This document shows positions 5,237 to 53,949 of a stretch of 64,000 nucleotides of DNA, one piece after another. The stretch comes from Vicinamibacterales bacterium (GTDB lineage: Bacteria; Acidobacteriota; Vicinamibacteria; Vicinamibacterales; Fen-181): NCBI GenBank assembly GCA_036504215.1, contig DASXVO010000070.1:1-64000 (forward strand). The letters run 5' to 3'. Below the pieces are notes generated by a model. It searched no databases. It was not told where the DNA came from and saw nothing but the letters and a program-made list of their open reading frames with translations. The translations under genes were made by a program, and so were the position numbers. Each line of letters begins with the position of its first letter. The stretch's first letter is position 1.

Positions 5237-5242
5237 ACGCCC

Positions 5243-7320: not shown

Positions 7321-8900
7321 CACAGTTGCGTTGTCAGCACGAACCACACGGCGCCGGCGGCCACGCCGAGCACGACAACCGCGGTGACGGACCCGACGAT
7401 CAGCGCCCGACGGCGCTGGTGGCGACGCTCCTCCCTGCTCAGCATCAGGGGAATCACGGCCATCACGGGCAGCGCCAGCAGCCGCACGACCTCGTCGTCT
7501 GTCCGGAAACTGTTGTCACGGTATTCGAGCAGCGCCACGAGACCGAGGCCGAGGCCGAGGCCGGCCACGGCGCCCATCAGGTCGATCATCGGCCGGTTCG
7601 GGCTGATCGGCTTCTCGGGCAGGCGCGCCGGGTCGATCGTGCTGAACTGCTCGCCGATGGCGCGCTCCTCGAGGGCGGCGGCCACCTTCGAATCCTCCTG
7701 CTTGGCCAGCAGGCTGTCGTAGTTCTTGCGCAGCGTGTCGTAGTCGCGCATCAGGCTCGTCAGTTCCGACTCGCGGCCGGCCGTGGACTCGACGCGCGCC
7801 TGGTAGGTGACCAACACGCCTCGCAAGCGCTTTTCCTCCCCCAGCTTGGTCGCGATCTGGCGGTCGAGCATCTCCATCTCGGTCTGCGCAGCCTTCAGGC
7901 GCCCCACGCGGTTGGCCTCCTCGGGGCTGGCTGGCCTCGCGTCGACGCCCGGCGACAGCGGCTGCTGCAGCGCCTCGGCCTGCAGCTTGGCTTGAAGATC
8001 GCGGACTGTCCGCTTCATCCCGCGCACGTCGGGGTGATCGTCCTTGAGGCGGAGCTGCAGCAACTGCAGCTGCGCCTTGGCCGCCTCGAGCTGCGCGGCG
8101 GTGTTGCCGCCAGACACCTTCGTCGGATCGTCACCCGACACCACGACGGTGGGCGCGATCTGCTGCGAGTGCGACAGCTCGGCGATGGCCTTCTCGAGCA
8201 GGAAGCGGCGGTCCTTGTCCTGGTTCATCGACTGCTGGATCGCCTGGAGCTGCATCTGCGTGTTGTTGAGGATCTGCAGGTTCCCGGCAATCTCGCTGGG
8301 CAGCTCGCCCGAGTGCTTCTGCTTGTACTCGGCCAGGCGCCGCTCGTGCTCCTCGAGACGGCGGCGGGCGTCGGCAAGCTGCGTCCCCAGGAAGTTCGTC
8401 GTGTTCTGGGCCAGCAGGTTGCGGTCGCTCGTGCTCTCCTCGACGAACCAGCCCGACAACCGGTCCACGACGCGCATCGCCATCCGCGGGTCGCGGTTGA
8501 CGTAGCTCACCCGGAACGCCTCGCCCTTGTTCGTGATGGTGATCGTGATGTCGTTGCGCATCCTCTCGACGACATCCTCCATCAGGCCCAGCCGGCGCTC
8601 GCGCGGGTAGAGGTTGAACTCCAGGATCGCGCGCTCGAGCGAGGTGCGGCTCAGCACCTTCTGGTTCATCGACGCCAGCCGGTCCTCGATCTTGGTCGTC
8701 ACGGTGGACTTCACGTAGCTGTCCGGCACCCGCTGCGGCACGACGGCGATGAGCGTCTCGGAGCGATAGACATCGGGCAGACGCCACGCGACCGCCGCGG
8801 TCCCGGCCGAGACGACGAGGAACGGAAGGACGATCAGCCACTTCCGGCGCCACGCGAGCTGGAGGATGTCCTCGGGAGTGTATTTCTTGCCAGGAAGCAC
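7320..8900 (-). CDS. XrtA-type polysaccharide chain-length determinant (Wzz/GNVR)
   Basis: This 526-residue inner-membrane polysaccharide co-polymerase sets polymer length and activates the kinase encoded two genes downstream. The N-terminus has a membrane helix at about residues 20-41, followed by the Wzz domain (YRSETLIAVVPQRVP). The periplasmic part (about 150-430) is largely charged coiled coil. A proline-rich PEKPISPNRP segment precedes a second hydrophobic helix, and the protein ends in a final membrane segment. Unlike fused BY-kinases it has no P-loop. It is the third gene of the EPS operon, 47 bases after the barrel gene, and its stop overlaps the ATPase start. Confidence 0.9.
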   Translation of the reverse strand: MLPGKKYTPEDILQLAWRRKWLIVLPFLVVSAGTAAVAWRLPDVYRSETLIAVVPQRVPDSYVKSTVTTKIEDRLASMNQKVLSRTSLERAILEFNLYPRERRLGLMEDVVERMRNDITITITNKGEAFRVSYVNRDPRMAMRVVDRLSGWFVEESTSDRNLLAQNTTNFLGTQLADARRRLEEHERRLAEYKQKHSGELPSEIAGNLQILNNTQMQLQAIQQSMNQDKDRRFLLEKAIAELSHSQQIAPTVVVSGDDPTKVSGGNTAAQLEAAKAQLQLLQLRLKDDHPDVRGMKRTVRDLQAKLQAEALQQPLSPGVDARPASPEEANRVGRLKAAQTEMEMLDRQIATKLGEEKRLRGVLVTYQARVESTAGRESELTSLMRDYDTLRKNYDSLLAKQEDSKVAAALEERAIGEQFSTIDPARLPEKPISPNRPMIDLMGAVAGLGLGLGLVALLEYRDNSFRTDDEVVRLLALPVMAVIPLMLSREERRHQRRRALIVGSVTAVVVLGVAAGAVWFVLTTQL

Positions 8901-8947
8901 AGGGACCTCACTTCACCATCTGTCAGGCGGGAAGGGGGAAAGGCCGC

Positions 8948-10369
8948 CTATCTGAGGAGCGGCGCCCAGAGGTTCAGGCCGACCTTTACGCTCTGACGAT
9001 CCATGCTCCGGCTCATCCCGAACGGCAACTGCACGCTCGGGTCGAACCGGTAGTGATAGTAATCGTACTCCGTGAACACCGCGATCGAGCGCGACAAGGC
9101 CACCTGGTAGCTGGCGACGCCGCTTGCCGTCGTGTAGGGCCTCGCGTTGATGGTGATGCCCATCTGGCCGTTCGTGTACGCGGCCGAGAAGTTGAGGCGC
9201 GAGCGCGATCCCAGGAACCCGGTGGCGATCGCGGACACCGAATCGGCGAAGAACGGATCGGGGAAGCCCTCGACGAACTGGAGGCCGCGCTGGTAATTGG
9301 CCCGCGCACTCCAACTGCGGCGGATCTGCCAGGTCAGAAATGCGCTGCCAGTCGCGGTGTAATGCGTCCGTCGGTACAGGTCGGCCGCCGACGCGGTACT
9401 GCCAGGCGTCGTGGACGCCGCGTCGAGAGGGTCGAAGCTCCGGTAGACCGACGACCCCGTCTTGAAACCGATGGTCGCCTTGCGCGAGCGCGACAGCGGG
9501 CGGCTGTAGTCGAGGCCGATGTCGAGGTCGTGCGAGTCCACCGGGCGGTTCACGGCCACGTAGCCGAGGGTGGCGCGTCGGAAATGGTAGCCCAGGCGAA
9601 TGCTCGACCGCGGGCTGGTGCGGTAGCTGAATCCCGCGCCGGCCGCGTAATTGGTGTAGGGCCGAGCCTGGGCCTGGTAGTCGGTGTAGCTGAAGTTGTA
9701 GTCGGCGGTCAGCGACGAGCGCGGCGTCAGCCGGTGGTCGAGCGCTGCGGACGAAGACGCCATGACGGCGGTCTGGCTCACCAGCGGACGCTGCGGATCG
9801 ATCGGCGCCACCTCCCCGGGCTGGCGCGTCGTCAGGCCCGGGAAGAGGCCGAACGCAAAGTACGGCGTGTAGCTGCCGCTCTCGGTCGCGCGGAGCGTGG
9901 TGCGGCGACCCAGGTTCGCGGTGAAGCCGACGCTCGCGAAGTAGGAGAAGCCGTTCAGTTCCTTGATCGTCGGGTAGTAGCGATACGTCGTGCCCGCCGA
10001 CATGTCCACGCTGCCCTTCCCCACCTTCTTCGTGTAGTCGAGCGAGAGATTGCCGCTGCCGTACGCCCCGCTCTTCAGGTAGCGGGGGTCGGTCGTGACA
10101 CTCTGGCCGCGCTCGGCGAAGACGTTGTCGTCGTAGGCGCCGGAGAGCGACACGCTCAGATCGAACTGCTGCGTGCTCGTCGGGTCGGCCGCGTTGCCCC
10201 CGAAGAGGCCCCGATACGGACGGTCGGGACGGGGACGCTGGGCGAATACCGGCAGAGACACGAATAGCGAGAGGACGAGGATGAGGGCTGGTCGGCGAAG
10301 GTGGAGAAGTGCCAGGTACAAGGTGCTATGTGCTGAGTGCTCCTTCATCCTTCCTCCTTCCTTTTTCAT
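8948..10369 (-). CDS. Outer-membrane beta-barrel protein of the EPS locus
   Basis: This protein of up to 473 residues probably forms an outer-membrane barrel used in EPS secretion, like the TIGR03016-type proteins of exosortase clusters. A signal peptide ends in LFVSLPVFAQ. The rest alternates polar and hydrophobic residues in many short strands rich in Tyr, Arg and Ser. A motif typical of the group, SLSGAYDDNVFAE, follows the signal. The assigned ATG at 10369 lies inside a heptanucleotide tandem repeat. A second ATG at 10348 gives a cleaner signal peptide and may be the real start. The gene is 34 bases downstream of the export protein gene. It is less conserved than its neighbours, so the specific role is inferred from position. 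Confidence 0.82.
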   Translation of the reverse strand: MKKEGGRMKEHSAHSTLYLALLHLRRPALILVLSLFVSLPVFAQRPRPDRPYRGLFGGNAADPTSTQQFDLSVSLSGAYDDNVFAERGQSVTTDPRYLKSGAYGSGNLSLDYTKKVGKGSVDMSAGTTYRYYPTIKELNGFSYFASVGFTANLGRRTTLRATESGSYTPYFAFGLFPGLTTRQPGEVAPIDPQRPLVSQTAVMASSSAALDHRLTPRSSLTADYNFSYTDYQAQARPYTNYAAGAGFSYRTSPRSSIRLGYHFRRATLGYVAVNRPVDSHDLDIGLDYSRPLSRSRKATIGFKTGSSVYRSFDPLDAASTTPGSTASAADLYRRTHYTATGSAFLTWQIRRSWSARANYQRGLQFVEGFPDPFFADSVSAIATGFLGSRSRLNFSAAYTNGQMGITINARPYTTASGVASYQVALSRSIAVFTEYDYYHYRFDPSVQLPFGMSRSMDRQSVKVGLNLWAPLLR

Positions 10370-10401
10370 CCTTCATCCTTCATCCTTCATCCTTCCTCCT
10401 T
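10367..10401. repeat. Heptanucleotide tandem repeat over a start region
   Basis: Four perfect copies of CATCCTT (10367-10394) plus a variant CCTCCTT lie in the gap between the export protein gene and the barrel gene. A related CATCCTTCCTCCTT block is at 10346-10359. On the coding strand the unit reads AAGGATG, so every copy carries a ribosome-binding-like AAGGA and an ATG. Because the unit is seven bases, neighbouring ATGs are in different frames. Only the ATG in the last copy (10369) is in frame with the barrel protein. Confidence 0.9.
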
Positions 10402-10403
10402 AT

Positions 10404-11147
10404 CTATGGAACTATGACCGTGTCGCCCGGCTTCAGCTCGATGTTCTGCTTCAGGTTCTTGCGCCTGGTCACGTCCTTGTAGTTGAACGCGAAGCTCAGC
10501 TGCCGGCCGTTCTCGGTCCGCATGATGGTGATGTTCTTCTGGTCGGCGAACTCGGTGAGGCCGCCGGCCATCGCGATCAACTGCAGGACGCTCGTGGCGG
10601 CGGTCAGCGGATACGGGCCCGGCTTGGCCACGCTGCCGGTAATGAACACCTTGCGGCTGTTGATCTGCTTGATGTTGATCGTGACGTTCGGGTCCTCGAA
10701 GAACTTCTTCGCCGCTTCGTTCACCTTGTCGCGAAGCTGCTCGGGCGTCAGGCCGGCGGCCTGGACGTCGTTCAGGAGCGGCAGCGAGATCATCCCGTCG
10801 GGCCGGACGATGACCTCGGCCGACACGTCCTTCTCTCGCCAATAGAGGACCTGCAGGATGTCATCGGGGCCAATCACGTAGCCGGGCGGCGGCGGCACGA
10901 CGGGGGCGCGAACGATGGGCGTCGGCGCGACGGACGGCTTGGCCGGTGTCTTGGCGTCCTTCTTGGGGTCGGGCTTCCTGGTGTCCTGCTTCTTCGGGTC
11001 CTGCTTGGCGGGCACCTGCGGCTTGACTTGCGGCGCGACAGGCGGCGCGGTTTGCGGCGGGGTGGACTGCGCCTGGGCCGCCATCGGCCCGGAACTGGCC
11101 GCAAGGACGAAGGCGGCGATGACGAGCACGCAAAACGTTCGCTTCAT
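10404..11147 (-). CDS. XrtA-system polysaccharide export protein (Wza/OPX type)
   Basis: This 247-residue protein is the first gene of the EPS operon. A signal peptide (MKRTFCVLVIAAFVLAASS, ending near AQA) is followed by a Pro/Lys/Gln-rich linker to about residue 85. The poly_export domain then begins at PPGYVIGPDDILQVLYWRE, and a SLBB-like domain starts near KVFITGSVAKPGPYPL. It ends LKPGDTVIVP, as the family usually does. OPX proteins form the outer-membrane or periplasmic export channel for EPS. No lipobox cysteine is obvious at the expected cleavage site, so it may be periplasmic and work with the barrel protein encoded next. The 193 bases upstream hold no recognisable sigma-54 site. Confidence 0.9.
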   Translation of the reverse strand: MKRTFCVLVIAAFVLAASSGPMAAQAQSTPPQTAPPVAPQVKPQVPAKQDPKKQDTRKPDPKKDAKTPAKPSVAPTPIVRAPVVPPPPGYVIGPDDILQVLYWREKDVSAEVIVRPDGMISLPLLNDVQAAGLTPEQLRDKVNEAAKKFFEDPNVTINIKQINSRKVFITGSVAKPGPYPLTAATSVLQLIAMAGGLTEFADQKNITIMRTENGRQLSFAFNYKDVTRRKNLKQNIELKPGDTVIVP

Positions 11148-37517: not shown

Positions 37518-37865
37518 CCAGGGTCAGTGTAGCGTCATTCGCACGCGCCATGAGTGCCACCCGAGACCGTCGCCGAGCCCGATGGCTGGACCGGACGCTG
37601 TATCAGTCGTGCACCTCACAGACCTGCCTTGACTTCGAGCGCGCTCAGCCCTACTCTCACGGCTGCAACACGGCCCGTTGTTCTCTCAGTCTCAGTCTCA
37701 GTCTCAGTTCAGCCACAGCGTCTCTCGCGCCGGCACGCGATCTCGCGTGTCGGCGTTTATCGGTGACCGACGTCCGCAGTCGCTCGGACGCACTGTCCTG
37801 CCCGGTGGCACCGTGTCGCTCGCGTTGCCGGCCAGCGAACTCAGCGCGTCCAGCCCGGAGGCTCT
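37518..37865. promoter_or_regulatory. Divergent upstream region of MFS and giant protein genes
   Basis: This 348-base gap lies between divergent genes and should contain promoters for both. It holds a hexanucleotide tandem repeat at 37685-37708. A GGAGG at 37857-37861 is the ribosome-binding site for the giant gene (GTG at 37866). No clear -35/-10 pair was identified. Confidence 0.5.
37685..37708. repeat. Hexanucleotide tandem repeat (CTCAGT)4
   Basis: There are four perfect copies of CTCAGT, followed by a partial TCAG, about 160 bases upstream of the giant gene start. Such simple repeats can change length by slippage. Here that could alter spacing in the upstream region. Confidence 0.85.
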
Positions 37866-40800
37866 GTGCACGAGAGAACGGCTCCCACCTCGATCCGCAC
37901 CCTGGCCGTCATCATCGCCCTTCTGCTGTCGGTGGGGTGGGCGAATGCGCAGACCGGAGCGATCTCTGGAACCGTGACGTCGGCTGCAACCGGGTTGCCG
38001 ATCAACGGCTTCACGATCGGCATCACGGTTTACACGAGCAGTGGAGGCCTCGTTGGAGGCGTGTGGTCCGACACCTCGGGTGTCTACACGATGAGCGGCC
38101 TCACGCCGGGCACCTACTACGTCCGGATCAGTCCGACGGGATTACCGGGGGGGTATCTCTCGCAGATCTACAACGGCATCAACTGCGGCAACACCTGCCC
38201 GGCCGTGACGACCGGCGCACCGGTCACGGTAACCGCGAGTGTGACGACGCCGAACATCAACTTCTCGCTCCTCACGGCTGGCTTCATCTCGGGGACGGTC
38301 CGCGACGCCCAGACGTCGGCGCCGCTGTCGAACGTCAGGGTCTACGTCTACCTGGCCGACGGTTCGCAATACGACTACGTGACGACCCTTCCGGACGGCA
38401 CGTATCGAACCTACAACGGCCTCGCCACCGGCACCTATTACCTGCGCACATGGAACTGGTCGAACTACATTGACCAGTTGTACGCTGGCACGCCATGCCC
38501 GAACTGGGTCTGCAGTCTCAGCACGGGCACGCCGGTGTCGGTCACGGCGGGGTCCACGACGGCGGGCCGCGATTTCGCCCTTGCGCCTGGCGGCAGCATC
38601 TCCGGAACGGTGACGGCCGCCGGCACCGGGACGCCACTCGCCAGCCTCACGGTCTCGTTCTATAACTCCGGCGGATCGTTGCTCGGGTCGGTCACTACCA
38701 ACGCCAGCGGCGCCTACGCGACCTACCTCGGCCTGCCGAGTGGCAGCTACTACCTGAAGACGAGCGGCGGCAACGGCTACGCCGGACAGGTGTACAGCGG
38801 ACAGAACTGCGGGACCACGTGCCCGCCGGCGACGATGGGCACCGCGGTGCAGGTCACGGCGCCGCAGGCGGCGACGGGCGTTGACTTCGCGCTCGTGCAG
38901 AACGGCCAGATCACGGGGACGGTGACGGCCGCGGGAACCGGCACGCCCATCCAGAATGCGAGCGTCGTCGCGTACTCGCTCGGCCGAAACCCGGTCAGCA
39001 CCGTCACCACGAACGCCAGCGGGATCTACACCCACTCGCTGCCACCCGGTCAGTACTACGTCCGCACGTCGAACGTCACCGGCTACATCGACCAGCTGTA
39101 CCCGAGCCTGGCGTGCCCGGCCAGCAACTGCTACCTCCAGACCGGCACACCGATCACCGTAGCGGCCGGCGCACCTGCGTCGAACATCGACTTCTCGCTG
39201 GCGGCGGGCGGCGCCATCTCGGGCACGGTGACGGGGGCGGTGCCGGGCACGCCGCTGCTGTCCGGGGTGACGGTCACAATCTACGACGTCTCGGGATACA
39301 GCAAAGGGACCGCAACGACGGGCGCCGATGGGACCTACACCGCCGCGATCAACCTGCCGACCGGCAGCTACTACGCGAAGGTGACGAACAGCCCAGGATG
39401 GGCGCCGCAGGTCTACTCCGCCTTCCCGTGCCCAGGCGGCTCGTGCCCGGTGACCAATGGCACCCCCATCCCGGTCACGGCGGGCGCGACGCGATCCGGC
39501 GTCAGCTTCGCGCTGGCGCCGACGGGGCAGATCAGCGGCACGGTCCGGGCGGCAGGAACCCTCGCGCCATTGACGCTTGTGAGCGTCAGCGCGTGTCCGC
39601 TGGGCGGCGGCAACTGCATGTCGTCATCGACAGATGCGGGCGGCGCGTACGCGATCTCCGGCCTCTCTGCGGCCACGTACTACCTGCGGACATCGAACTA
39701 CGTCGGATACGTGGACCAGCTCTATCCGGCGGTCACCTGTCCGAACTGGACGTGCTCGACGAGTCTCGGCGCGCCGGTCGTGCTGACATCCGGCGGCGCG
39801 CTGACGGGCAAGGACTTCACGCTGTCGCAGGGGGCTACGGTGTTAGGGTCGGTCACTGCGGCGGGAAGCGGGCTGCCAATCGCCAACGTCACGGTCGACA
39901 TCTACAACGACCTCGGCTGGTACGTTGACAGCACCACCCCCGGGAGCCTCGGCGGCTACACGACGACGGTCGGCCTGCCTCCCGGCACCTACTACGCGCG
40001 GGCCAACGCGAATTCCAGCGCCTACCAGAGCCAGAACTACCAGGCGTTCGACTGCGGCGCGTCGTGTCCGTCGGCCACGATGGGAACGCCGCTGACCATC
40101 ACGGGGACCACGTCCCTCACCAACATCAACTTCGCGCTGACGCCCACGGCCGGCGTAACGGGCACGGTGAGGTCGGCGGCGACGGGCGCGCCGATCGCTG
40201 GTGTGTTGGTTCACGCTCGAAGCGCCTCCGGCATCATCCTGGTCCAGGGCTCCACGAACAGTCTTGGCGCCTACACGCTGAACGTGCCGCTGACCACCGG
40301 CACGGTGTACGTCACCACGGCGAACCCCTTCGGCTACATCGATCAGATTTACGGCGGCGGGACGTGCGTCGCGGCGGCCTGCTCGATGCGGACGGGAACC
40401 GGGGTGCCGGTTGCCGCCGGTGCGACGGTCTCGGGTATCGACTTCTCGCTGGCAACAGGCGGCGGGATTGCCGGCCTCATCACGACCGCCGGCACGGGCG
40501 TCGGCCTCGCCAATGTCTCGGTCACCGTCTTCTCGGCGGCGGGCACGGGCCTGACCACGATCTCCACCGATTCTTCGGGCGCCTACACCACGGTGATCGG
40601 CCTGCCCACTGGCAGCTACTACGTTCGCACGTCGAACTCGAACGGCTACGTCGACCAACTCCACAGCGGCATCACGTGCCGTCTCGGCAGTTGCACGGTG
40701 CTCACCGGCACGCCGGTCGCGGTTGTCGCCGGCGCCACGTCCAGCGTCAACTTCTCGCTGGCGCGTGGCGGGGCAATCCAGGGCACCGTCAGGGCGGCGG

Positions 40801-43800
40801 GAACCGGAGCGCCGCTGCCAGGCATCTCCGTCTCGATCTACAGCGACACGGGGGCGATGGTCGGAAGCTTCGTCACGACGGACGTCAACGGCGTGTTCGC
40901 GACGAATGCCGGCCTGACCCCCGGGAACTACTTCCTCAGAACGGAGGCCACGTCCGGGTACATCAACCAGGTGTACAGCGGGCTGACGTGCGCGTCCTCG
41001 TGTCCGCTGGCGACCGACGGCACGCCGGTCGCGGTGACCGCCGGCGCCACGACGTCCGGCATCGCCTTCACGTTGCCGGCTACCGCCACGATTAGCGGAA
41101 CGATCACGGCCGCGGGAAGCGGCTCGCCGATCGCGGGCGTGACGGTGAACGTGCTCAACAGCTCTGGTTACTCGGCCGGCTCGGCGGTGACGAACGGGAC
41201 CGGAGCCTACGTGACGACCGTACCACTCGTCACCGGCACCTACTACCTGCGGACGGTGAACGCGCTCGGCTACGTCGACCAGGTCTCCGGCGGGCGGGAA
41301 TGCCCGTTCTCGAGCTGCAGCGCGCTGACGGGGCAGCCGATCGGCGTGACGGCCGGCGTCGCGACGACGGGCGTGGACTTTGCGCTCGGCGTCGGCGGAA
41401 TCGTCACCGGCACGGTGACGGCGGCCGGCAGCGGCGCCCGCCTCGCCGGCGTGTCGGTGACCATCGCCTCGAGCGCGGGCAGCCTGAGCACGACGACGAA
41501 TGCGGCGGGCGTCTACGCGACGCAGACGGGCCTGCCGACCGGTACCTACTTCGCCATGATCTACGGGACATCGGGCTACCTCGGGCAACTCTACGGCGGC
41601 CAGATCTGCGGCACATCGTGCCCGTCGACCATGTCCGGGCAGCCGTTCGCCGTGACGGCGCCGCAGACGACGTCTGGAATCGACTTCAGCCTGGCGGCCG
41701 GCGGAATCATCACGGGCACGGTGAGGGCGAGCGGCACGAACGATCCGCTGGCCGGGGTCTCGGTCTCGATCCTGAATTCGAGCGGCGGTGTCGTGAACAC
41801 CGTGGGCACCAACGGCGCCGGCGTCTACAGGACCACGACGGGTCTGCCCACCGGGACATACTACGTGCGGACGGCGAGCCAGCCTGCGTACATCGGCCAG
41901 ATCTACACCGGGGCGGATTGCCCGGCGGCAACGTGCCCGATCACGCTGGGCACGCCGGTGCCGGTGACGGCTGGCGGAACGACTGCCAGCGTCGACTTCC
42001 TTCTGAAACCGGGTGGCAGGATCACGGGCACCGTCGTCGATGCGGCCACCCTCGTGCCGCTGACGACGACGGTCATGCTCTACGACAGCGTGGGAGTGTT
42101 CGTCTCGTCCACGTCCACCTCCGGCGGCGTCTACACCACTCCGGCGTTGCCGAACGGCTCGTACTTCCTGAAGACGTCGAGCGGAGCGTCGTCGCAGTAC
42201 GTCGATCAGCTCTACAACGGCTTGCCGTGTCGCACCGCCACGTGCCTGGTGACGAACGGCACGCCGGTGAGCATCACGACGGTTGCCACCGTGTCCGGGA
42301 TCAACTTCGCCCTGCCGATGGGCGGCGCGATCCGGGGCACGGTCACGGCAGCCGGGAGCGGCGCACCGCTCGTGAACGTGCCTGTGGTCGCGACCACGGA
42401 CGGAGGTGCCGGCACCGGCAGCACGGTCTACACCGACAGCAACGGCGTCTACATGATCCCCGGCCTCCCAACCGGCGGGTACTTCGTGAAGACGAATCTG
42501 ACGGCCTACGGCTACTTCAACCAGATCTACAGCGGCCTGAACTGCTCGACCTCGTGCCAGGCGGCGACGGACGGCACGCTCGTTGGCGTCACGGCCGGAT
42601 CGACAACCTCGGGCATCAACTTCGCCCTGACGGGCGGCGGGTCGATCGCGGGCACGGTGAGAGCCGCGGGAAGCGGCACGCCGATTCCCGGTGTGACGGT
42701 CCAGTTCTACAACTCCAGCGGAGCCTCTCTCGCGGCGGTCCTGACGAACAGCAGCGGGGTCTACGCGACTGACGTGCCGCTGCCGACCGGCCTCTACTAC
42801 CTCCGAGCATACGGTGCACCGGGGTACGTCGACCAGCTGTACGCGGCGACCAACTGTGTCGGCACGTGCACGGTCACGTCGGGCGCCGCGGTGCCGGTGA
42901 ACGCCGGCGTGCAGACGACGGGCGTCGATTTCGCGCTCTCCCCCGCCGGCACCATTTCCGGAATCGTGACGGCCGCGTCCGGCGGCGCGCCGCTGTCGGG
43001 CGTTCAGGTCGGCGTGTACACGACGGCGGGCGCGCTCGTCGGCTCGACGACGACAAATACCAGCGGCGTGTACGCCACGTCGCTCGGCCTGGCCACGGGG
43101 CTCTACTACGTGCGAGCCGGGGGCGTGGGAACCTTCGTGGGGCAGCTCTACGGCGGCGCCGCGTGCCCGGCCACGCCCTGCACGTGGACATCCGGGACAC
43201 CGGTGGCGGTGACGTCAGCGGTGACGACACCGGGCATCGACATCGCGCTCGTCTCGGGCGGCCAGGTCACCGGCACGGTGACGGCGGCCGGGTCGAGCAC
43301 GCCGCTGCCCGGGGTGGTGATCAGCGTGTATTCGCCCACCGGAAGCTTCGTCTCGTCGGCCACGACGGTCGGCAACGGCAGCTACGCCGTGCAGGGAGTC
43401 CTCGCCGGGTCGTACTACGTTCGCACGACCACCGCGACGGGCTACATCCACCAGATCTACTCGGGTGTGAACTGCGGCCCATCGTCGTGCCCGTTCGCCG
43501 GCGCCACCACGGTAGCTGTCACGGCCGGCGGCACGACCCCGGCCATTGACTTCGCATTGGCTCAGGGAGGCGTCCTCACCGGCGCGGTGACCGCAGCCGA
43601 CACCGGCCTGCCGATCGCGGGCTCGGTCAGGCTCTACGACAGCACGGGAACCTCGGTCACATCATCCGGCCTGAACAGCGCCGGCGTCTTCAGCATTCCC
43701 GGGCTGCCGACCGGCACGTATTACCTGTTCACGTCGAACGCGTCGGGCTACGTGGACAGGCTGTACGCCGACCTGCCGTGCGTGAGCGCCAACTGCGTCG

Positions 43801-46800
43801 CGCGCGAGGGGACGCCGATTGCCGTGACGGCCGGCGCCACGACGGGCGGCATCAACTTCGTGCTGTCACGCGGCGGGTTCATCGGCGGCACGGTGACGGC
43901 TGCGGCGACCGGCGCGTCAATCTACGGCGTGGCCGTGGGGGTCTACAACGCAAGCGGCACGGCGGTCGCCACGGTGGCCACCGACACCAACGGCCTCTTC
44001 ACCACTGCGCCGACCGGGCTCTTGCCGGGCGCCTACTACGTCAAGACGCAGGCCACGGTGCTGTATCTCAACCAGGTGTACTCGGGCGTGATCTGCGGCA
44101 CGTCGTGTCCGTCTTCCTGGCTGGACGCCACACCGGTGACGGTCACCGCCGGAACGACGACGTCGGGCATCGATTTCGCGCTCGGCCGGGGCGGGTCGAT
44201 CTCGGGCACGGTCCGCACATCGGGCGGAACGCCGCTGCCCGGCGTCGGCGTGGTCTTCTTCAACAGCAGCGGCTCGAACCTCGGGCGCGCGACGACGAAC
44301 GCCAGCGGCGCGTACACGACCAACGTACCGCTGCCGGCCGGGATCTACTACCTGCGAACCGTGAACGCCTTCGGCTCGGTCGACCAGTTGTATTCGGGCG
44401 TTCCATGCGCCGACTCCTCCTGCTCGGCGACAGGGGGTACGCCGGTCACGGTGGCGGCCGGCCAGCCCACCACAGGCGTCGACTTCAGCCTGTCGGCCGG
44501 CGGCGGCATCAGCGGAACGGTGACGCGCGGCGGCCTGCCCGTCGCAGGCGCGTCGGTCGCTGCCTACTGGGGCAACGGCAGCACCGCGTACACCGCCACC
44601 ACCGACGCCAGCGGCGCGTATGTGATTCCGTGGTCGCTCGCGGCCGGCTCGTATTACGTGCGAGCGTCGGTGGCGGGATCGCTGCCGCAGGTCTACCCCA
44701 GCCTCAACTGTCCGACGACCACGTGCTATGTCACGATGGGCACGCTGGTGCCCGTGGCCGTCGGCGCGACGACGACAGGCATCGACTTCGCGCTGGCACC
44801 GGGCGGCCGGATCAGCGGCAAGGTGACGGCGGCCGGAACCGGCACGCCGTTGTCGGGCGTGTCGGTTTCCATTTACACGGTCAGCGGGTCATCGACATCA
44901 ACCGTCGAGACCGTCACCACGGGCGGTGACGGCATCTACACCTCCACCGGCACCCTCGGGACCGGCTCCTACGCGGTCAGGGCTGCCAACAGCGGCACGT
45001 ACCTTGGGCAGGTCTACGGCGGCGCGAGTTGTGCGGCAAACGACTGCCGCGTGGCGGCCGGCGCGCTGGTGCCCGTCACGGCCGGCGCGACGACGTCCAA
45101 CATCGACTTCGCGCTCGTCCAGGGAGGCCAGATCTCCGGGACGATCGCCCTGCCCGGAAGCCCGGGCCCGGTGTCGGTCTGCGTGTACGTCTACAACAAC
45201 GCGAGCCAGTACATTTCCAGCAACTGCACGACCACCGGGGTCTACACGACCGGCGTGCTGGCTCCCGGGCAGTACTACCTGCAGACCTACAACTCCGCCG
45301 GCGCGCTCGACCAGGCGTACAACGGCGTCGCGTGCCCACGTGCCACGTGCAGCGCCACGATTGGAACGCCGGTCACCGTCACCGCCGGTGCGACGACGTC
45401 CGGCATCAACTTCTCGCTGCCACCGGGCGGCCTGATCAGCGGGACGGTGACGGCCGCGGGCACCGGCGCGCCCGTATCCGGCGTATCGGTGCAGGTCGTG
45501 TCCGAGACGGGGTCCGGCGTTGGCTCGTACACAACCGATGCCAACGGTTTCTACATGACGTCGGGCGGCCTGCCGACGGGCACGTACTTCCTGACGGCGA
45601 ACTCACGGGCCGGGTACTTCGGTCAGGTCTATCACAGCCTCGATTGCGGCACGTCGTGCACGTCGACGGTAGCCGGCACGCCGGTGAGCGTGACGCTTGG
45701 TGCGATCACGTCGGGCATCGACTTCGCGTTGCCGAAGGGCGGCTCGATCAGCGGCACGGTGACGGCGGCGATTGGCGGGGCACCGCTGGCCGGCGTCAGG
45801 GTATACGTCTACACCAGCACGGGCAGCAACCCCGGGTCGTGGACGACCAACGACAGCGGCCGGTTCAGTGTCGACACCCCGCTCGAGGCCGGCACCTATT
45901 ACCTGCGCGCGTCGAGCCCGCAGGGCTTCGTCGATCAACTCTACGGCGGGACGGCCTGCCCCGGCGGCACGTGCACGGTCACCACCGGAACGCCGGTCAC
46001 GGTGGCGGCATCGACGCCGACGACCGGCATCAACTTCGCGCTCTCGCAGGGCGCCGGCATCAAGGGGACGGTGACCGCGGCCGGCACCGGTGCGCCGCTG
46101 GCGGGCATCAGCGTCACGGCCTACGGCCCGACCGGCACGATGTTCGGTTCGGCCGTCACCAACGGCAACGGCGCCTACTCGATTCCGAACGTGCTGGCAG
46201 CGGGCGACTACTACCTCCAGGCGTCCAACGCGCTCGGCTATCTCAACCAGATCTACAACCAGGTCAACTGCGGCTCGACGTGCCCGCCGACGCCCACGGG
46301 CGCGGTCGTCGCGGTGACGGCCGGAGCCGTGCGAACCGGCATCGACTTCTCGCTGACGCCTGGCGGGAGCATCGCCGGCACCGTGACCGAGGCGGCGACC
46401 GGCCGTCCGGTCAGCAATGCATCCGTCTACGTCTACGACAGCGCCGGAAACCAGGTGCAGTCGCCGAGGACGAATGTCGGCGGCGTCTACACCACGACCA
46501 CCGGCCTCGCCGCCGGCACCTACTACCTGCGCACGTCGGCGGGAAGCGGATACATCGACAAGGTGTACGCCAACGCCACGTGCCCCGCGGGCACGACGTG
46601 CCACGCGATGGCCGGCACGGCGGTCGTTGTCACGCTCGGCGCGGCGACCTCGAACATCAACTTCTCGCTCGACAAGGGCGGCGGGATCAGCGGCACGGTC
46701 ACCGATGCCGCGACGGGTGTTCGGCTGACGAACGTCGAAGTTGATATCTACGATTCGGCGGGCAGCTACATCTCGTACCTCTACACCGACAGCTTCGGCA

Positions 46801-49493
46801 CCCTCTACACCGCTTCCGGCCTGGCCACCGGAACCTACTACCTGAGGACCTATGTCTACGGAAGCGATGGGTACCTCGACCAGGTGTATTCAGGCCTGGC
46901 ATGCGGATCGTCGTGCTCTGCGTCTGGTGGCACGCCGGTCAGCGTGACGGCCGGCGCCACGACCAGCGGTGTTGATTTCGCCCTCGTCAAGGGCGGCACC
47001 GTTTCCGGAACGGTGCGCGAGGCTGGGACGAATCTGCCGCTGGCCGGCGTCAACGTGTCGATCTACGCCGAGACCGGTGTGTTGTTGACAACGGGGACGA
47101 CCAACGGCGCGGGCTTCTATCGCGCCACGGGGATTCCCGCCGGCACCTACTTCGCCAGGACGACGAACTCCAAGGGGTACGTGGACGTGCTGTACCCGGG
47201 AACGGCGTGCGGCACGTGCATCGTCACCAAGGGAACGCCGTTGGCCGTCACGGCGGGCAACGACACCGGCGGCATCGACTTCACACTGCCCGTCGGCGGC
47301 TCGATTGCGGGCACGATCACCGACGAGGCCTCGCACCTGCCGCTGAAGGGCGTCTCGGTCGTGGTCTACGACGGACTCGGTCGCGGCACCACATCGGTCG
47401 TCACCGACGCCGCGGGTGCCTACTCGAAGACCGGCCTGGCGACTGGGAACTACTTCATTCGCACGTCGAACTCCCTGGGCTACGTCGACGAACGGTTCGA
47501 CAACGCCCCATGTCCCGGCGCCTCTTGCATCGTCGTCGAGGGGACGCCGATTGCCGTCACGGCGGGCAGCGCCACGACGGGGAAGGACATCGCGCTGGCG
47601 ATGGGAGGATCGATTGTCGGGAAGGTGACGAGCGCTGCGACCGGGTTCCCGCTGCCGAGCATCTACGTTTATGCCTACGACAGCAGCGGCAGGTCGCTCA
47701 GCAGCGTCAGGACGAACGCCGTCGGCGTCTATACGAGGTCCGGCCTCCCGGCCGGCAACTACTACCTCTACGCGTACGGGTCGGTCGGCTCGACGGGATA
47801 CGTCACGCAGGTCTACTCGGGCGTTGCGTGTCCGCAGTCGACCTGCTCGGTGACGAAGGGGACGGGCGTCACCGTGGCTGCCGGCGTGCCGACTACCGGG
47901 ATCGACTTCGCGATGGATCCGGCAGGAGTCATCACCGGCACCGTGACTCGGGCGGGAAATGGAACGCCGCTGATGAAGGAGTCGGTCTACGTCTACAACG
48001 CAACCGGGCAACTCCTCACGTCGACCACCACCGACGGGTCGGGCACGTATCGTCTGACCGGACTGGCCACAGGGAGCTACTACGTGTGGGCCGGCAGCCG
48101 GTCCTCCGAACCCGTTGGCTACATCGGGCTCCTCTATCCGGCGATTCCGTGCCCGAACGCAACCTGCGTCGTACTCGCCGGAACGCCCGTTGCGGTGTCC
48201 GGCGGGGCGACCACCGCGAACATCAACTTCGCGCTCGCGCCATCGGGCACGATTAGCGGCGCGATTACCGACGGCTCGTCCGGCGCGCCAGTCGTCGGCG
48301 CCAGCGTCTCCGCGTGGGATCAGGCCGGGAAGGTGATCGCCACGATCAGCGCGTCGATAACCGGCACATACACGTTGTCGGGGCTGCCGACGGGGACGTA
48401 CTTCGTGAAGGCGTCGAACACCGCACTTGGCTACGTAGGGAAGGTGTACGCCGCGCTGGTGTGCCCGGGAAGCGCCTGCTCGCCGGCCGCCGGAACACCC
48501 GTGGCGGTAACGGCAGGGGCCGCGACGCCTGGCATCAACATCGCGCTCAGCAAGTCGGCCGGCTCGATCTCCGGCCTCGTCACCGATGCCGCGACGGGCG
48601 GCGGCATCGCAGGCAGCGTCACGGTCAACGCCTACGACGTGCTCGGGCGGGTGGCGGGCTCCACGCCCGTCTCGTCCGGCAGTTACACCATCACCGGGCT
48701 TCCGGTCGGGACGTACCGCGTGGCGACCGCGAACTCGGTCGGTTGGCTCAATCGCATGTACTCGGGCGTGGCCTGCGCCGGGGATTGCGATCCGCGGGTG
48801 GGAACCCCGGTGGCGGTGGCGGCGTCTGCAACGACATGGGGCATCGATTTCGCGCTGACGTTGGGCGGATCCATCAAGGGCACGGTCACAGACAAGACCA
48901 ACGGCGCCCTGGTGCTGCAGGCCTCGGTGCAGGTGTACAACGGCACGGGCGCACTCGTCGCCACGACGCAGACGACAACTGGCAGCTACGCGCTCACCCT
49001 CCCGGCCGGCACGTACTTCCTCCGGACGACGAGCGTGTCAGGCTACAGCAACCAGGTCTTCTCGGGCGTCGCGTGCCCGGGTGGGACGTGCCCGGTCACC
49101 AGCGGCACGCCGGTGAGCGTCGTCGTCGAGACGATGGTGCCGGACGTCAATTTCGTGCTCGACCGCAACCCGCTGGCGTTCACGGACGACCCGCTGCAGG
49201 CGCGCATGACGACGATCAAGGCCGCGCACGTCACGGAGTTGCGCCAGCGGATCGACGACCTCCGCGTGCGCTACTCGCTGCCGGCGTTCTCATGGAGCGA
49301 TGCGCCGCTGGCCGCCGGGGCGACGCGTGTGAAGGCGGCGCACATCGCGGAGCTCCGAACCGCGTTGGACGAGGTGTACGACGCGGCCGTACGCCTGCGG
49401 CCGACCTACACCGGGCCGGCGCCGACGGCCGGGACGGCGGTGTCGGCCGTGCACATCACCGAGGTGCGTGCGGCGATCGCGGACATCTGGTAG
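37866..49493 (+). CDS. Giant secreted protein with ~36 tandem beta-sandwich-like repeats
   Basis: This is a single 3875-residue frame. A signal peptide (LAVIIALLLSVGWANAQTG) is followed by about 36 repeats of roughly 103 residues, counted by hand from the recurring GGxISGTVTAAGTGxPLxGVxV opening. Each unit continues with TNxxGxY, GLPTGTYYxRTSN, GYxxQxYxG, a cysteine pair (CxxxC or CxxxxC), then GTPVxVTAGxTTxGIDFAL. The ISGTV...TNASGxY...TGxYY pattern is that of carboxypeptidase-regulatory/Cna_B-like domains. The last 101 residues form a different domain with three helical repeats (KAAHVTELRQ, KAAHIAELRT, SAVHITEVRA), a C-terminal module I associate with secreted Acidobacteriota proteins. There is no PEP-CTERM, LPXTG or membrane anchor. 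The start is GTG with GGAGG five bases upstream. A structural or adhesive surface role is inferred. Confidence 0.92.
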   Translation: MHERTAPTSIRTLAVIIALLLSVGWANAQTGAISGTVTSAATGLPINGFTIGITVYTSSGGLVGGVWSDTSGVYTMSGLTPGTYYVRISPTGLPGGYLSQIYNGINCGNTCPAVTTGAPVTVTASVTTPNINFSLLTAGFISGTVRDAQTSAPLSNVRVYVYLADGSQYDYVTTLPDGTYRTYNGLATGTYYLRTWNWSNYIDQLYAGTPCPNWVCSLSTGTPVSVTAGSTTAGRDFALAPGGSISGTVTAAGTGTPLASLTVSFYNSGGSLLGSVTTNASGAYATYLGLPSGSYYLKTSGGNGYAGQVYSGQNCGTTCPPATMGTAVQVTAPQAATGVDFALVQNGQITGTVTAAGTGTPIQNASVVAYSLGRNPVSTVTTNASGIYTHSLPPGQYYVRTSNVTGYIDQLYPSLACPASNCYLQTGTPITVAAGAPASNIDFSLAAGGAISGTVTGAVPGTPLLSGVTVTIYDVSGYSKGTATTGADGTYTAAINLPTGSYYAKVTNSPGWAPQVYSAFPCPGGSCPVTNGTPIPVTAGATRSGVSFALAPTGQISGTVRAAGTLAPLTLVSVSACPLGGGNCMSSSTDAGGAYAISGLSAATYYLRTSNYVGYVDQLYPAVTCPNWTCSTSLGAPVVLTSGGALTGKDFTLSQGATVLGSVTAAGSGLPIANVTVDIYNDLGWYVDSTTPGSLGGYTTTVGLPPGTYYARANANSSAYQSQNYQAFDCGASCPSATMGTPLTITGTTSLTNINFALTPTAGVTGTVRSAATGAPIAGVLVHARSASGIILVQGSTNSLGAYTLNVPLTTGTVYVTTANPFGYIDQIYGGGTCVAAACSMRTGTGVPVAAGATVSGIDFSLATGGGIAGLITTAGTGVGLANVSVTVFSAAGTGLTTISTDSSGAYTTVIGLPTGSYYVRTSNSNGYVDQLHSGITCRLGSCTVLTGTPVAVVAGATSSVNFSLARGGAIQGTVRAAGTGAPLPGISVSIYSDTGAMVGSFVTTDVNGVFATNAGLTPGNYFLRTEATSGYINQVYSGLTCASSCPLATDGTPVAVTAGATTSGIAFTLPATATISGTITAAGSGSPIAGVTVNVLNSSGYSAGSAVTNGTGAYVTTVPLVTGTYYLRTVNALGYVDQVSGGRECPFSSCSALTGQPIGVTAGVATTGVDFALGVGGIVTGTVTAAGSGARLAGVSVTIASSAGSLSTTTNAAGVYATQTGLPTGTYFAMIYGTSGYLGQLYGGQICGTSCPSTMSGQPFAVTAPQTTSGIDFSLAAGGIITGTVRASGTNDPLAGVSVSILNSSGGVVNTVGTNGAGVYRTTTGLPTGTYYVRTASQPAYIGQIYTGADCPAATCPITLGTPVPVTAGGTTASVDFLLKPGGRITGTVVDAATLVPLTTTVMLYDSVGVFVSSTSTSGGVYTTPALPNGSYFLKTSSGASSQYVDQLYNGLPCRTATCLVTNGTPVSITTVATVSGINFALPMGGAIRGTVTAAGSGAPLVNVPVVATTDGGAGTGSTVYTDSNGVYMIPGLPTGGYFVKTNLTAYGYFNQIYSGLNCSTSCQAATDGTLVGVTAGSTTSGINFALTGGGSIAGTVRAAGSGTPIPGVTVQFYNSSGASLAAVLTNSSGVYATDVPLPTGLYYLRAYGAPGYVDQLYAATNCVGTCTVTSGAAVPVNAGVQTTGVDFALSPAGTISGIVTAASGGAPLSGVQVGVYTTAGALVGSTTTNTSGVYATSLGLATGLYYVRAGGVGTFVGQLYGGAACPATPCTWTSGTPVAVTSAVTTPGIDIALVSGGQVTGTVTAAGSSTPLPGVVISVYSPTGSFVSSATTVGNGSYAVQGVLAGSYYVRTTTATGYIHQIYSGVNCGPSSCPFAGATTVAVTAGGTTPAIDFALAQGGVLTGAVTAADTGLPIAGSVRLYDSTGTSVTSSGLNSAGVFSIPGLPTGTYYLFTSNASGYVDRLYADLPCVSANCVAREGTPIAVTAGATTGGINFVLSRGGFIGGTVTAAATGASIYGVAVGVYNASGTAVATVATDTNGLFTTAPTGLLPGAYYVKTQATVLYLNQVYSGVICGTSCPSSWLDATPVTVTAGTTTSGIDFALGRGGSISGTVRTSGGTPLPGVGVVFFNSSGSNLGRATTNASGAYTTNVPLPAGIYYLRTVNAFGSVDQLYSGVPCADSSCSATGGTPVTVAAGQPTTGVDFSLSAGGGISGTVTRGGLPVAGASVAAYWGNGSTAYTATTDASGAYVIPWSLAAGSYYVRASVAGSLPQVYPSLNCPTTTCYVTMGTLVPVAVGATTTGIDFALAPGGRISGKVTAAGTGTPLSGVSVSIYTVSGSSTSTVETVTTGGDGIYTSTGTLGTGSYAVRAANSGTYLGQVYGGASCAANDCRVAAGALVPVTAGATTSNIDFALVQGGQISGTIALPGSPGPVSVCVYVYNNASQYISSNCTTTGVYTTGVLAPGQYYLQTYNSAGALDQAYNGVACPRATCSATIGTPVTVTAGATTSGINFSLPPGGLISGTVTAAGTGAPVSGVSVQVVSETGSGVGSYTTDANGFYMTSGGLPTGTYFLTANSRAGYFGQVYHSLDCGTSCTSTVAGTPVSVTLGAITSGIDFALPKGGSISGTVTAAIGGAPLAGVRVYVYTSTGSNPGSWTTNDSGRFSVDTPLEAGTYYLRASSPQGFVDQLYGGTACPGGTCTVTTGTPVTVAASTPTTGINFALSQGAGIKGTVTAAGTGAPLAGISVTAYGPTGTMFGSAVTNGNGAYSIPNVLAAGDYYLQASNALGYLNQIYNQVNCGSTCPPTPTGAVVAVTAGAVRTGIDFSLTPGGSIAGTVTEAATGRPVSNASVYVYDSAGNQVQSPRTNVGGVYTTTTGLAAGTYYLRTSAGSGYIDKVYANATCPAGTTCHAMAGTAVVVTLGAATSNINFSLDKGGGISGTVTDAATGVRLTNVEVDIYDSAGSYISYLYTDSFGTLYTASGLATGTYYLRTYVYGSDGYLDQVYSGLACGSSCSASGGTPVSVTAGATTSGVDFALVKGGTVSGTVREAGTNLPLAGVNVSIYAETGVLLTTGTTNGAGFYRATGIPAGTYFARTTNSKGYVDVLYPGTACGTCIVTKGTPLAVTAGNDTGGIDFTLPVGGSIAGTITDEASHLPLKGVSVVVYDGLGRGTTSVVTDAAGAYSKTGLATGNYFIRTSNSLGYVDERFDNAPCPGASCIVVEGTPIAVTAGSATTGKDIALAMGGSIVGKVTSAATGFPLPSIYVYAYDSSGRSLSSVRTNAVGVYTRSGLPAGNYYLYAYGSVGSTGYVTQVYSGVACPQSTCSVTKGTGVTVAAGVPTTGIDFAMDPAGVITGTVTRAGNGTPLMKESVYVYNATGQLLTSTTTDGSGTYRLTGLATGSYYVWAGSRSSEPVGYIGLLYPAIPCPNATCVVLAGTPVAVSGGATTANINFALAPSGTISGAITDGSSGAPVVGASVSAWDQAGKVIATISASITGTYTLSGLPTGTYFVKASNTALGYVGKVYAALVCPGSACSPAAGTPVAVTAGAATPGINIALSKSAGSISGLVTDAATGGGIAGSVTVNAYDVLGRVAGSTPVSSGSYTITGLPVGTYRVATANSVGWLNRMYSGVACAGDCDPRVGTPVAVAASATTWGIDFALTLGGSIKGTVTDKTNGALVLQASVQVYNGTGALVATTQTTTGSYALTLPAGTYFLRTTSVSGYSNQVFSGVACPGGTCPVTSGTPVSVVVETMVPDVNFVLDRNPLAFTDDPLQARMTTIKAAHVTELRQRIDDLRVRYSLPAFSWSDAPLAAGATRVKAAHIAELRTALDEVYDAAVRLRPTYTGPAPTAGTAVSAVHITEVRAAIADIW

Positions 49494-49498: not shown

Positions 49499-49549
49499 TG
49501 CGAGCCAGCCCATTCCGACCCACCTACGGGTTGCGCGAGTTGGCTCGCA
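49499..49549. terminator. Inverted repeat after the giant gene
   Basis: TGCGAGCCA (49499-49507) pairs with TGGCTCGCA (49541-49549), with a small inner ACCC/GGGT hairpin in the loop. It lies between two convergent genes and overlaps the 3' end of the BACON gene. It may act as a shared terminator, although there is no T-run. Confidence 0.45.
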
Positions 49550-50750
49550 CACCTCTCGGCTGAGCTGGCTTGGTCGGCGGGTTCTGCGTGACGGCCAACG
49601 TCTGGCCGCCCACCACGATCGACCCGCTGCGAGCCGACGTCGTGGAGTTGTGCAGGAGGGCGTAGTTCAATGTGGCCGTGCCCGTCCCGCTCGTGCTCGC
49701 CAATGTGAGCCACGTTGCGCCCGTGGTCGCGGTCCACCCGCAACTCGTCGCGCTGGCCGTCACCGTCACGCTGCCGCTACTCGCCGCCGACGTGAACGTT
49801 TGAGTTGTCGGCGACAGCGTGAACGTGCAAGGTGGCGGTGCCGCGGCCTGCGTCACGACGAACGCCTGGCCACCGATTGTGACCGTGGCGCTTCGCGCCG
49901 CCCCGGTATTGCCCGCCACAACGATGTTCACCGAGCTCGTACCGGTACCACTGGCCGGGCTCACCGATACCCAGGCCGATCCGCTCGATGCCGTCCATCC
50001 GCACCCCGTTGCGCTGGCCGTGACCGTCACGCTGCCGCTGCCGGCCGCCGACGTGAACGCCTGGCTCGTCGCCGAGAGGGCGATTGTGCAGGGCGGCGGC
50101 GCGGCTGCCTGCGTCACGACGAACGCCTGGCCACCGATCGTGAGCGTGGCGCTTCGCGCCGCGCCGGTATTCTCTGCCACGACGATACTCACCGCGCCGG
50201 TGCCGGTACCGCCGGCCGGACTCACCGAGACCCAGGCGGAGCCGCTCGATGCGGTCCATGCGCAACTCGTCGCGCTGGCCGTCACCGTCAGGCTGCCGCT
50301 GCCGGCCGCCGACGTGAACGTCTGAGTTGTCGCCGACAGCGTGAACGTGCAGGGTGGCGGCGCGGCTATGGCTTGAAAGCTGAATTGATTCGATGGAGCG
50401 CTCTGCCCGCTCCCGCTCGCCCCGATCGCCGCGACACGCGCCTCGTAGTCACCGGTGGCCAGCGGCCACGCAGTGAGCAGCGTGGAGAAATCGACGCGGA
50501 TCTTGCCGTCGGCAGCTGGCACCGGCTTCCCGAGGTTCGTCGTGATCACCGGCTGGGTCGCGCCAAGAAGGAAGAACTGCAGATCGTATCGCTGAACGAC
50601 CGGCGTTCCGTCCGGCGCCAACACCGCGTGGTCGGCCGATGGATCGAACTCGAGGTTTCTGGGGTTGATCACCGTGGACTGAGCGGCTGCGGGCAGCGCC
50701 ACCAACGCACACAGGATGATCGCGAACGCAACGTGAACAACTGCTCTCAC
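49524..50750 (-). CDS. Secreted protein with three BACON domains
   Basis: This 408-residue protein begins with a signal peptide (VVHVAFAIILCALVALPAAAQS; GTG start). Residues about 25-125 form an Ig-like region (PAADGKIRVDFSTLLTAWPL, then YEARVAAIGASGSG). Three consecutive BACON repeats follow, each with TxTFTSAAGSGSVTVTASAT, a CxWTASSGSAWVSVSP segment and GGQAFVVTQAA. BACON domains are thought to bind glycans or mucin-like ligands and occur in secreted enzymes and surface proteins. No enzyme domain is present here. The repeat units are also similar at DNA level. It converges on the giant gene, and both may be extracellular matrix or adhesion components. Confidence 0.88.
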   Translation of the reverse strand: MRAVVHVAFAIILCALVALPAAAQSTVINPRNLEFDPSADHAVLAPDGTPVVQRYDLQFFLLGATQPVITTNLGKPVPAADGKIRVDFSTLLTAWPLATGDYEARVAAIGASGSGQSAPSNQFSFQAIAAPPPCTFTLSATTQTFTSAAGSGSLTVTASATSCAWTASSGSAWVSVSPAGGTGTGAVSIVVAENTGAARSATLTIGGQAFVVTQAAAPPPCTIALSATSQAFTSAAGSGSVTVTASATGCGWTASSGSAWVSVSPASGTGTSSVNIVVAGNTGAARSATVTIGGQAFVVTQAAAPPPCTFTLSPTTQTFTSAASSGSVTVTASATSCGWTATTGATWLTLASTSGTGTATLNYALLHNSTTSARSGSIVVGGQTLAVTQNPPTKPAQPRGVRANSRNP

Positions 50751-52661: not shown

Positions 52662-52748
52662 GCGGAAGTGGCGGAACTGGCAGACGCGCTAGCCTCAGGA
52701 GCTAGTGGGCGCAAGCTCATCGGGGTTCAAATCCCCGCTTCCGCACCA
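52662..52748 (+). tRNA. tRNA-Leu (anticodon CAG)
   Basis: The acceptor stem GCGGAAG pairs with CTTCCGC, and the CCA end is encoded. The anticodon stem CTAGC/GCTAG encloses the loop CTCAGGA, giving anticodon CAG. A long variable arm (TGGGCGCAAGCTCA) is typical of class II tRNA-Leu, and the T-arm CGGGGTTCAAATCCCCG is perfect. It looks functional. The accessory DNA starts directly after it. Confidence 0.97.
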
Positions 52749-52751
52749 TTC

Positions 52752-52841
52752 GACTCGGTCGCTCCCTTCGCCAACTCCCTCGCTCATGGCAGGCCAGACT
52801 CGGTCGCTCCCTTCGCCAACTCCCTCGCTCATGGCAGGCCA
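52752..52841. repeat. Perfect 45-bp tandem duplication after the tRNA
   Basis: The 45 bases at 52752-52796 are repeated exactly at 52797-52841, starting three bases after the tRNA CCA end. The unit includes CAACTCCCTCGCTCATGGCA. An exact duplication suggests a recent event. It may mark an unstable integration junction. Confidence 0.92.
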
Positions 52842-52990
52842 CGTCCATGCGAGGCGAATGGTGCGTCCCGAGCGAGCGGAGCGAGTCGAGGGGCCTCGCC
52901 ACAGGCTTCGTTCGGGCAAGCCATAACACGCGAAGTCTGTCTCGCCGGGCCTGCGTGCCGTCTCGAGCATCGCAGGGCCTATATTGAAGG

Positions 52991-53499
52991 CATGGAACGC
53001 GAGACTCCAAACCCACAGACCCTCCGCGAAGCGGTTGTCTACCTCGCTGACTACGAACATTGCCGGGCGGCTGTCGAGGCGATCCGGTGGCCGGGCGGCG
53101 CGGTGCACTGCCCGACTTGCGGATCGACCCACGTCTCGTATCTGGCAAACCAGCGGCGGTACAAGTGCTACGAGAAGCATCCCCGCGCACAGTTCTCCGT
53201 GAAGGTCGGGACCACCATGGAAGACTCGCCGATCGGTCTCGACAAGTGGATGGTCGCCATCTGGTTGCTCGCCAATGCGAAGAACGGGATTTCGTCGTAC
53301 GAATTGGCTCGCTCGATCGGGGTGACCCAAAAGACCGGCTGGTTCCTCCTCCATCGGATTCGCCCTGCGATGCAGAGCGGGACATTCGGCAAACTGTCCG
53401 GCGAAGTCGAAGCCGACGAAACCTACATTGGCGGCAAGGCCAGGAACATGCACCCCGCCAAACGCGCCAGGGTCATCGCTGGCACCGGCGGCATGGGCA
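52991..53499 (+). pseudogene. Truncated IS1595-family transposase
   Basis: The first 169 residues match the N-terminal two-thirds of an IS1595 transposase. A zinc-ribbon region reads HCPTCGSTHVSYLANQRRYKC, a helical part contains SSYELARSIGVTQKTGWFLLHR, and the first catalytic Asp is in GEVEADETYIGGKARN. Similarity stops abruptly after IAGTGGMG, before the second and third catalytic residues. The sequence then switches to an unrelated DUF433-like tail. The original start (ATG 52991, AAGG upstream) is intact. The protein cannot be an active transposase, so this is the 5' part of an element cut by recombination. Confidence 0.85.
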
Positions 53500-53619
53500 A
53501 CCCTGGCGCGCTACCCGCAGCTATCCGCCGAGGGCCTGTCCGCCGTGTTTCTGTTCGCGGCGGCCAATCTCGAACTCGATCGTCGAGGGCATCCGGGGCC
53601 CCAGTCTCGAGACGCGTGA
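53500..53619 (+). pseudogene. Possible DUF433 antitoxin 3' remnant
   Basis: A frame directly after the transposase break reads ARYPQLSAEGLSAVFLFAA and ends at a TGA. It resembles the last helix pair of DUF433 antitoxins (YPxLTxEDIRAALAYAA). No start or N-terminal part is present. It is probably the tail of an antitoxin gene fused to the broken transposase by deletion. The match is short. Confidence 0.4.
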
Positions 53620-53646
53620 GCTATGATAGGGCCCAGAGGCTGAACG

Positions 53647-53949
53647 ATGAGTCACAACCTGCCGATCGATTCGGAGGCGGTGTCGGCGTTCTGCAGACGG
53701 CATCACATCGCCCGCCTTGCACTTTTCGGGTCGGTGCTGAGGGACGACTTCCGACCCGATAGCGACGTGGATGTCCTCGTGGAGTTCCTGCCCGGCCATG
53801 TCCCCGGACTGCGGTTCGTCACGATCGAACGCGAGTTCTCGGAGCTTCTACATGGCCGACGGGTCGACCTTGTCACACCGAAGTTCTTGAACGCGCGCAT
53901 TCGGGAGCGCGTCCTGAGCACCGCCGAGCCGCTCTATGTCGCCGCGTGA
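53647..53949 (+). CDS. mntA: MntA-type nucleotidyltransferase antitoxin
   Basis: This 100-residue minimal nucleotidyltransferase has the motif GSVLRDDFRPDSDVDVLVEF, which supplies the GS and the D-x-D catalytic pair of polymerase-beta-like enzymes. In MntA/HepT systems this antitoxin adds AMP to a tyrosine of the HepT toxin and silences it. The gene overlaps hepT by 14 bases, the usual arrangement. Length and the C-terminal ARIRERVLSTAEPLY are typical. Confidence 0.9.
   Translation: MSHNLPIDSEAVSAFCRRHHIARLALFGSVLRDDFRPDSDVDVLVEFLPGHVPGLRFVTIEREFSELLHGRRVDLVTPKFLNARIRERVLSTAEPLYVAA

Follow-up and report, generated by a model that had tools for sequence, protein, structure and literature searches.

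What does the 11.6-kb open frame in this Vicinamibacterales genome encode, and how might its product be held at the cell? The frame lies on a 179-kb contig, within the window (the whole stretch of 64,000 nucleotides that was analysed). A preliminary description made of it a secreted, rigid rod of about 36 tandem repeats with a cysteine pair in nearly every one, closed by a distinct three-helix domain, without an anchor, and perhaps a new kind of adhesin, sheath fibre or matrix protein. Its reading of an uninterrupted frame is borne out: no stop codon interrupts the 3875 codons, a ribosome-binding site precedes the start (Table 1), and the frame is considered coding because its GC content at the three codon positions is 0.56, 0.61 and 0.89. 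The secretion signal is likewise supported: by its sequence, the N-terminus is a signal peptide of the Sec pathway. No transmembrane-like stretch follows the signal peptide anywhere in the giant protein, the repeats begin just behind it, and a Pfam scan of the protein found no adhesive family. The giant gene converges with that of a secreted BACON-domain protein without the tail module (49524-50750, minus strand); an IS1595-type transposase is encoded about 3 kb downstream (52668-53762, plus strand), and a putative exopolysaccharide cluster, of the XrtA/exosortase-associated type by reading of N-termini, occupies positions 3839-11147 (minus strand) of the window.

Table 1. Features of the giant gene and of its product, in window positions
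Feature	Position	Strand	Remarks
Ribosome-binding site, GGAGG	37857..37861	+	read from the sequence; GTG starts 4 nt further on
CDS, 3875-aa protein (about 382 kDa)	37866..49493	+	single open frame, GTG start
Signal peptide of Sec/SPI type, residues 1-28	37866..37949	+	ends in ..LAVIIALLLSVGWANA, before Q; sequence reading, no dedicated predictor
36 tandem CnaB/CarboxypepD_reg-like repeats, residues 33-3771	37962..49178	+	each with one C-x2..5-C pair
Repeats 8-29	40155..47000	+	super-period at its strongest (lag-5 identity)
Repeats 25-26, structure-predicted pair	45435..46058	+	pLDDT 94.8, pTM 0.83
C-terminal three-helix module, 104 aa	49179..49490	+	adjoins the stop codon

The repeats are matched above the curated cut-off by the Pfam family CarboxypepD_reg (PF13620; E 9.4e-241, 35 stretches), and SdrD_B (PF17210) and SpaA (PF17802), ranking behind it, also exceed the Pfam cut-off. 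Structure prediction for two adjoining repeats, run with AlphaFold (AF2) on an alignment of the giant protein's own repeats, returned a nearly all-beta model, a sandwich known from stalks, in which strand 103-111 is continuous over the domain boundary. Searched with Foldseek, this model retrieved the B. anthracis TIE protein, the B domains of SdrD, SpaA and other pilins, CnaB2 (8bdw, TMt 0.75) and the transthyretin-like domain of carboxypeptidase D (5aq0, TMt 0.79); the repeat profile finds SdrD by sequence too (7.8e-11). Model and fold search agree on a transthyretin/prealbumin-like sandwich. On the predicted structure, the repeats are CnaB/SdrD-B/transthyretin-like sandwiches joined without a linker, and Pfam, model and Foldseek together dispose of the notion of a new kind of domain, as this is a common stalk fold. 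Tandem sandwiches of this kind should form a stiff to semi-rigid rod, in support of the earlier proposal, and at about 4 nm per domain its length would be roughly 150 nm.

The array comprises exactly 36 repeats of 101-108 aa, with a mean identity among them of 42% (42.1%). Identity between repeats five apart is higher (45.0%), a difference reached in 0 of 5000 shuffles, and this super-period indicates that the array probably grew in part through copying of five-repeat blocks. The NCBIfam model NF058648 (NikL) scores 166 bits on the repeats, over a cut-off of 100; a NikL identity was rejected in favour of an apparent cross-hit on the sandwich repeats, and giants of this kind could come to be misannotated as subunits of a nickel transporter.

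A cysteine pair is present in the same loop (GYxxQxYxGxxC-x2..5-C) of all 36 repeats, as CxxxxC in 22, CxxxC in 12, and CxxC and CxxxxxC in one each, more uniformly than first described. These pairs account for 72 of the 76 cysteines of the protein, and of the remaining four, repeats 6 and 24 contain two apiece. A larger set of 81 repeats (five proteins, three genomes) consisted of these 36 and 45 others, taken from the second rod of the same genome and from those of two further genomes in the order, the G032 gene being counted once. The loop has both cysteines in 72 of the 81, neither in 9, and a single one in none (the lone cysteine of repeat 8 of G045b lies outside the loop and was not scored). 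At the observed frequencies, independent positions would yield about 16 singles, although shared ancestry weakens this number, not its direction. The all-or-none pattern is good evidence, at the level of sequence, for one local disulphide per repeat, as the preliminary description had predicted. The repeat cysteines would be oxidised; a homologue of VKOR, a disulphide-forming enzyme family, is encoded in the genome.

The same counts bear on the possibility that the gene is an ordinary expansion of CarboxypepD_reg repeats without specific function, and its tail a shuffled neutral domain. CarboxypepD_reg-like matches are indeed common in this genome (many of them weak), and the long proteins are patchily distributed; however, the presence of the pair in every repeat at such a mean identity, together with the all-or-none pattern, indicates selection, and the motif of the tail has been kept across phyla, so that neutral expansion appears very improbable.

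The intramolecular isopeptide bond of CnaB domains requires a lysine, an asparagine or aspartate, and a catalytic glutamate (PMC12617251). No column in the alignment of the repeats exceeds 6/36 Lys or 2/36 Glu; with neither residue conserved, the repeats therefore lack this bond, which is typical of CnaB stalks (PMC12617251), and assignment to the isopeptide type of CnaB was ruled out. To judge from these alignments, a disulphide probably takes the place of the isopeptide bond. The rod would then represent a second chemical route, disulphide instead of isopeptide, by which a Gram-negative lineage hardens its CnaB-like stalks, and since disulphides have been found to be common in the isopeptide domains of Acidobacteriota (PMC12617251), disulphide hardening of stalks may be general.

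Stalks of CarboxypepD_reg, SdrD_B or SpaA domains have the same sandwich fold as the repeats (by HMM and predicted structure) and also form tandem arrays in surface proteins, whereas the giant protein has a Cys-pair loop and no Lys/Glu triad, and strings 36 copies together in a single chain. Fibrillar adhesins (PMC8286594) are likewise long, secreted proteins in which a special terminal domain accompanies the tandem stalk domains. The giant protein is a disulphide-stapled relative of such known fibrillar stalks, ordinary in fold and unusual in size and chemistry, but with no recognised adhesive domain and no match to a known anchor family. Its 3703-aa paralogue in the same genome (L009; G000:C54:19702-30810, minus strand) has a single array of 22 repeats of the same kind, two further CarboxypepD-like repeats and the same tail module, but lacks the Cys pair in 8 of the 24 repeats detected and adds He_PIG, TIG and Cohesin-like domains. 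A GD..TDWVQAGRFVAG stretch of this paralogue is dockerin-like in appearance and has no Pfam match.

The tail of the giant protein was predicted to fold as three loop-helix units with one helix per unit (pLDDT 85.9, pTM 0.80), which supports the distinct three-helix C-terminal domain of the preliminary description, and each unit holds the motif [VI][KR]AxHxxELR. R22, R60 and R97 are 95-98% conserved, the H, E and L of each unit 73-93%, and polar residues in general as well as or better than hydrophobic ones; the motif is recognisable across phyla. An HMM search of the C-terminal residues for a sorting or anchoring family gave no match in Pfam or NCBIfam, none was obtained in the PDB by sequence or by fold, and no description of the tail was found in the literature searched. 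As far as its sequence can tell, the tail is a widespread module, so far undescribed, for which a family entry is warranted. It could also be a structural cap or oligomerisation domain without a role in location, as its small three-helix fold and the lack of a PDB fold match pointing to binding would allow; but a cap would need to fit propellers, a beta-helix, peptidases and CnaB rods alike, and the strong conservation of polar residues speaks against it, which makes this reading unlikely. Compared with BFVD, the module model has weak fold matches (best 2.1e-3, TMq about 0.5-0.7); the proteins matched are small phage proteins and uncharacterised ones from rod-shaped viruses of archaea. A viral or plasmid origin was rejected, the single weak match in viral_contigs, within a 130-residue frame, being taken as spurious and no plasmid match being obtained.

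This genome carries the module at 8 places, the proteins concerned being secreted and unrelated; the 7 intact copies all end in W directly before the stop codon. Apart from the giant protein and the second CnaB rod, the carriers are a subtilase, a C10 peptidase, a BNR/sortilin propeller, an LCAT-like esterase with kelch and FG-GAP repeats, a 3943-aa protein that reads as RCC1-type, and a beta-helix-like protein. In the last of these (L014; G000:C20:36844-37080, plus strand), which is secreted, a frameshift cuts the last tail unit, through either decay or an assembly error. Elsewhere the module was found in Acidobacteriota (Vicinamibacteria, Pyrinomonadaceae and Blastocatellia), in many Rokubacteria and in single genomes of other phyla. 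Carrier genomes are few and patchily distributed (6 of 60 relatives, 12 of 297 in the phylum) and usually hold several copies, up to 21. Matches to 49 Pfam families, largely extracytoplasmic and led by fn3, reprolysins, sortilin, GH44, S8, FG-GAP and kelch, were obtained for 42 carriers. Secretion of the carriers was judged from these domains and from reading of the N-termini, a simple signal-peptide heuristic being non-discriminating (positive for 52 of 58 module proteins and for 21 of 29 control genes).

In 81 of 92 proteins the module ends at most 8 residues from the C-terminus; in the other 11 it is non-terminal, several of these being long frames such as those of Pyrinomonadaceae RHS-like proteins. 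Because it is found on unrelated secreted proteins, many per genome and nearly always C-terminally, it is most simply seen as a putative, undescribed attachment or sorting module. The earlier statement that the rod has no anchor thus needs qualifying: no known anchor family is present, but the tail recurs at the C-termini of many unrelated secreted proteins, as anchoring and sorting modules do. The non-terminal cases rule out an obligate, cleaved C-terminal signal and favour a folded binding module, for example for an envelope polymer, and the repeated H/E/R pattern would fit three equivalent binding sites. In one secreted protein (L191; G052:C100:7538-10401) the module lies at the N-terminus, right behind the signal peptide.

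The binding sites might instead attach to a polysaccharide, another cell or some other external target, the module then being a lectin-like or polymer-binding domain that acts as an adhesive tip or directs enzymes to their substrate and not as a self-anchor. The threefold set of conserved polar H, E and R, one per unit, would suit repeated binding sites, the presence of the module on peptidases, GH44 glycosidases and an esterase is what is seen with binding modules, and internal positions are tolerated. However, so extreme a C-terminal bias is unusual in a plain binding module, and further domains of the binding type (FnIII, PKD, kelch) are already present in many carriers; ligand binding of this kind seems to us possible but doubtful.

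Among known systems, the T9SS Por_Secre_tail and PEP-CTERM are also C-terminal modules that recur, several to many times in a genome, on secreted proteins of diverse kinds, whereas the present module is helical, sometimes internal, and without a C-terminal transmembrane segment plus basic tail. PEP-CTERM/exosortase sorting was rejected on this last ground and on the occurrence of exosortase in carriers and non-carriers alike. The carriers (C10 and S8 peptidases, propeller proteins) do resemble the cargo of type IX secretion, and the module could be a T9SS-type C-terminal domain of a type IX-like system. Such domains are beta-sandwiches, however, while the module is predicted to be helical and is matched by no sorting-domain model; a T9SS identity is extremely unlikely. 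SprA_N was detected in 0 of 12 genomes, with control genomes equally silent. Matches of Por_Secre_tail on the giant protein have their best stretches in the repeats, not in the tail. In the SLH triple module, three similar helical units make up one module borne by many different secreted proteins, which offers no more than an analogy to the tail, with its one helix per unit; SLH (PF00395) was absent from the 21 families matched by 32 module members at E up to 1, and no SLH structure was among the PDB fold matches of the tail.

Returning to the attachment or sorting module, we tentatively suggest that many secreted proteins of Acidobacteriota and Rokubacteria use it as a tag by which an undescribed system for surface attachment or outer-membrane sorting recognises them, in a role like that of T9SS tails, PEP-CTERM or SLH. 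The giant protein would be exported by Sec, and in the periplasm each of the 36 CnaB-like domains would be stapled by a local disulphide, with the stabilising role that isopeptide bonds play in the CnaB stalks of Gram-positive bacteria; the domains, joined end to end without linkers, would make up the semi-rigid rod. The module, as a portable attachment or sorting module common to many secreted proteins of these bacteria, may fix the C-terminus to the cell envelope or pass the protein to an outer-membrane exporter, and the N-terminal repeats would thereby project outward from the surface. The chances of this explanation as a whole, a disulphide-stapled fibrillar stalk with a C-terminal attachment or sorting module, appear to us about even. 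In a survey of fibrillar adhesins nearly half were without a known anchor, and novel anchor domains were predicted to await discovery (PMC8286594); with its clear sequence signature, the module offers a concrete candidate for such an anchor in uncultured soil phyla. The 3943-aa carrier of this genome (L012; G000:C21:20590-32594, plus strand) has putative RCC1-type (KCWG) repeats and 116 cysteines in its frame, and its repeats also appear to be disulphide-stapled.
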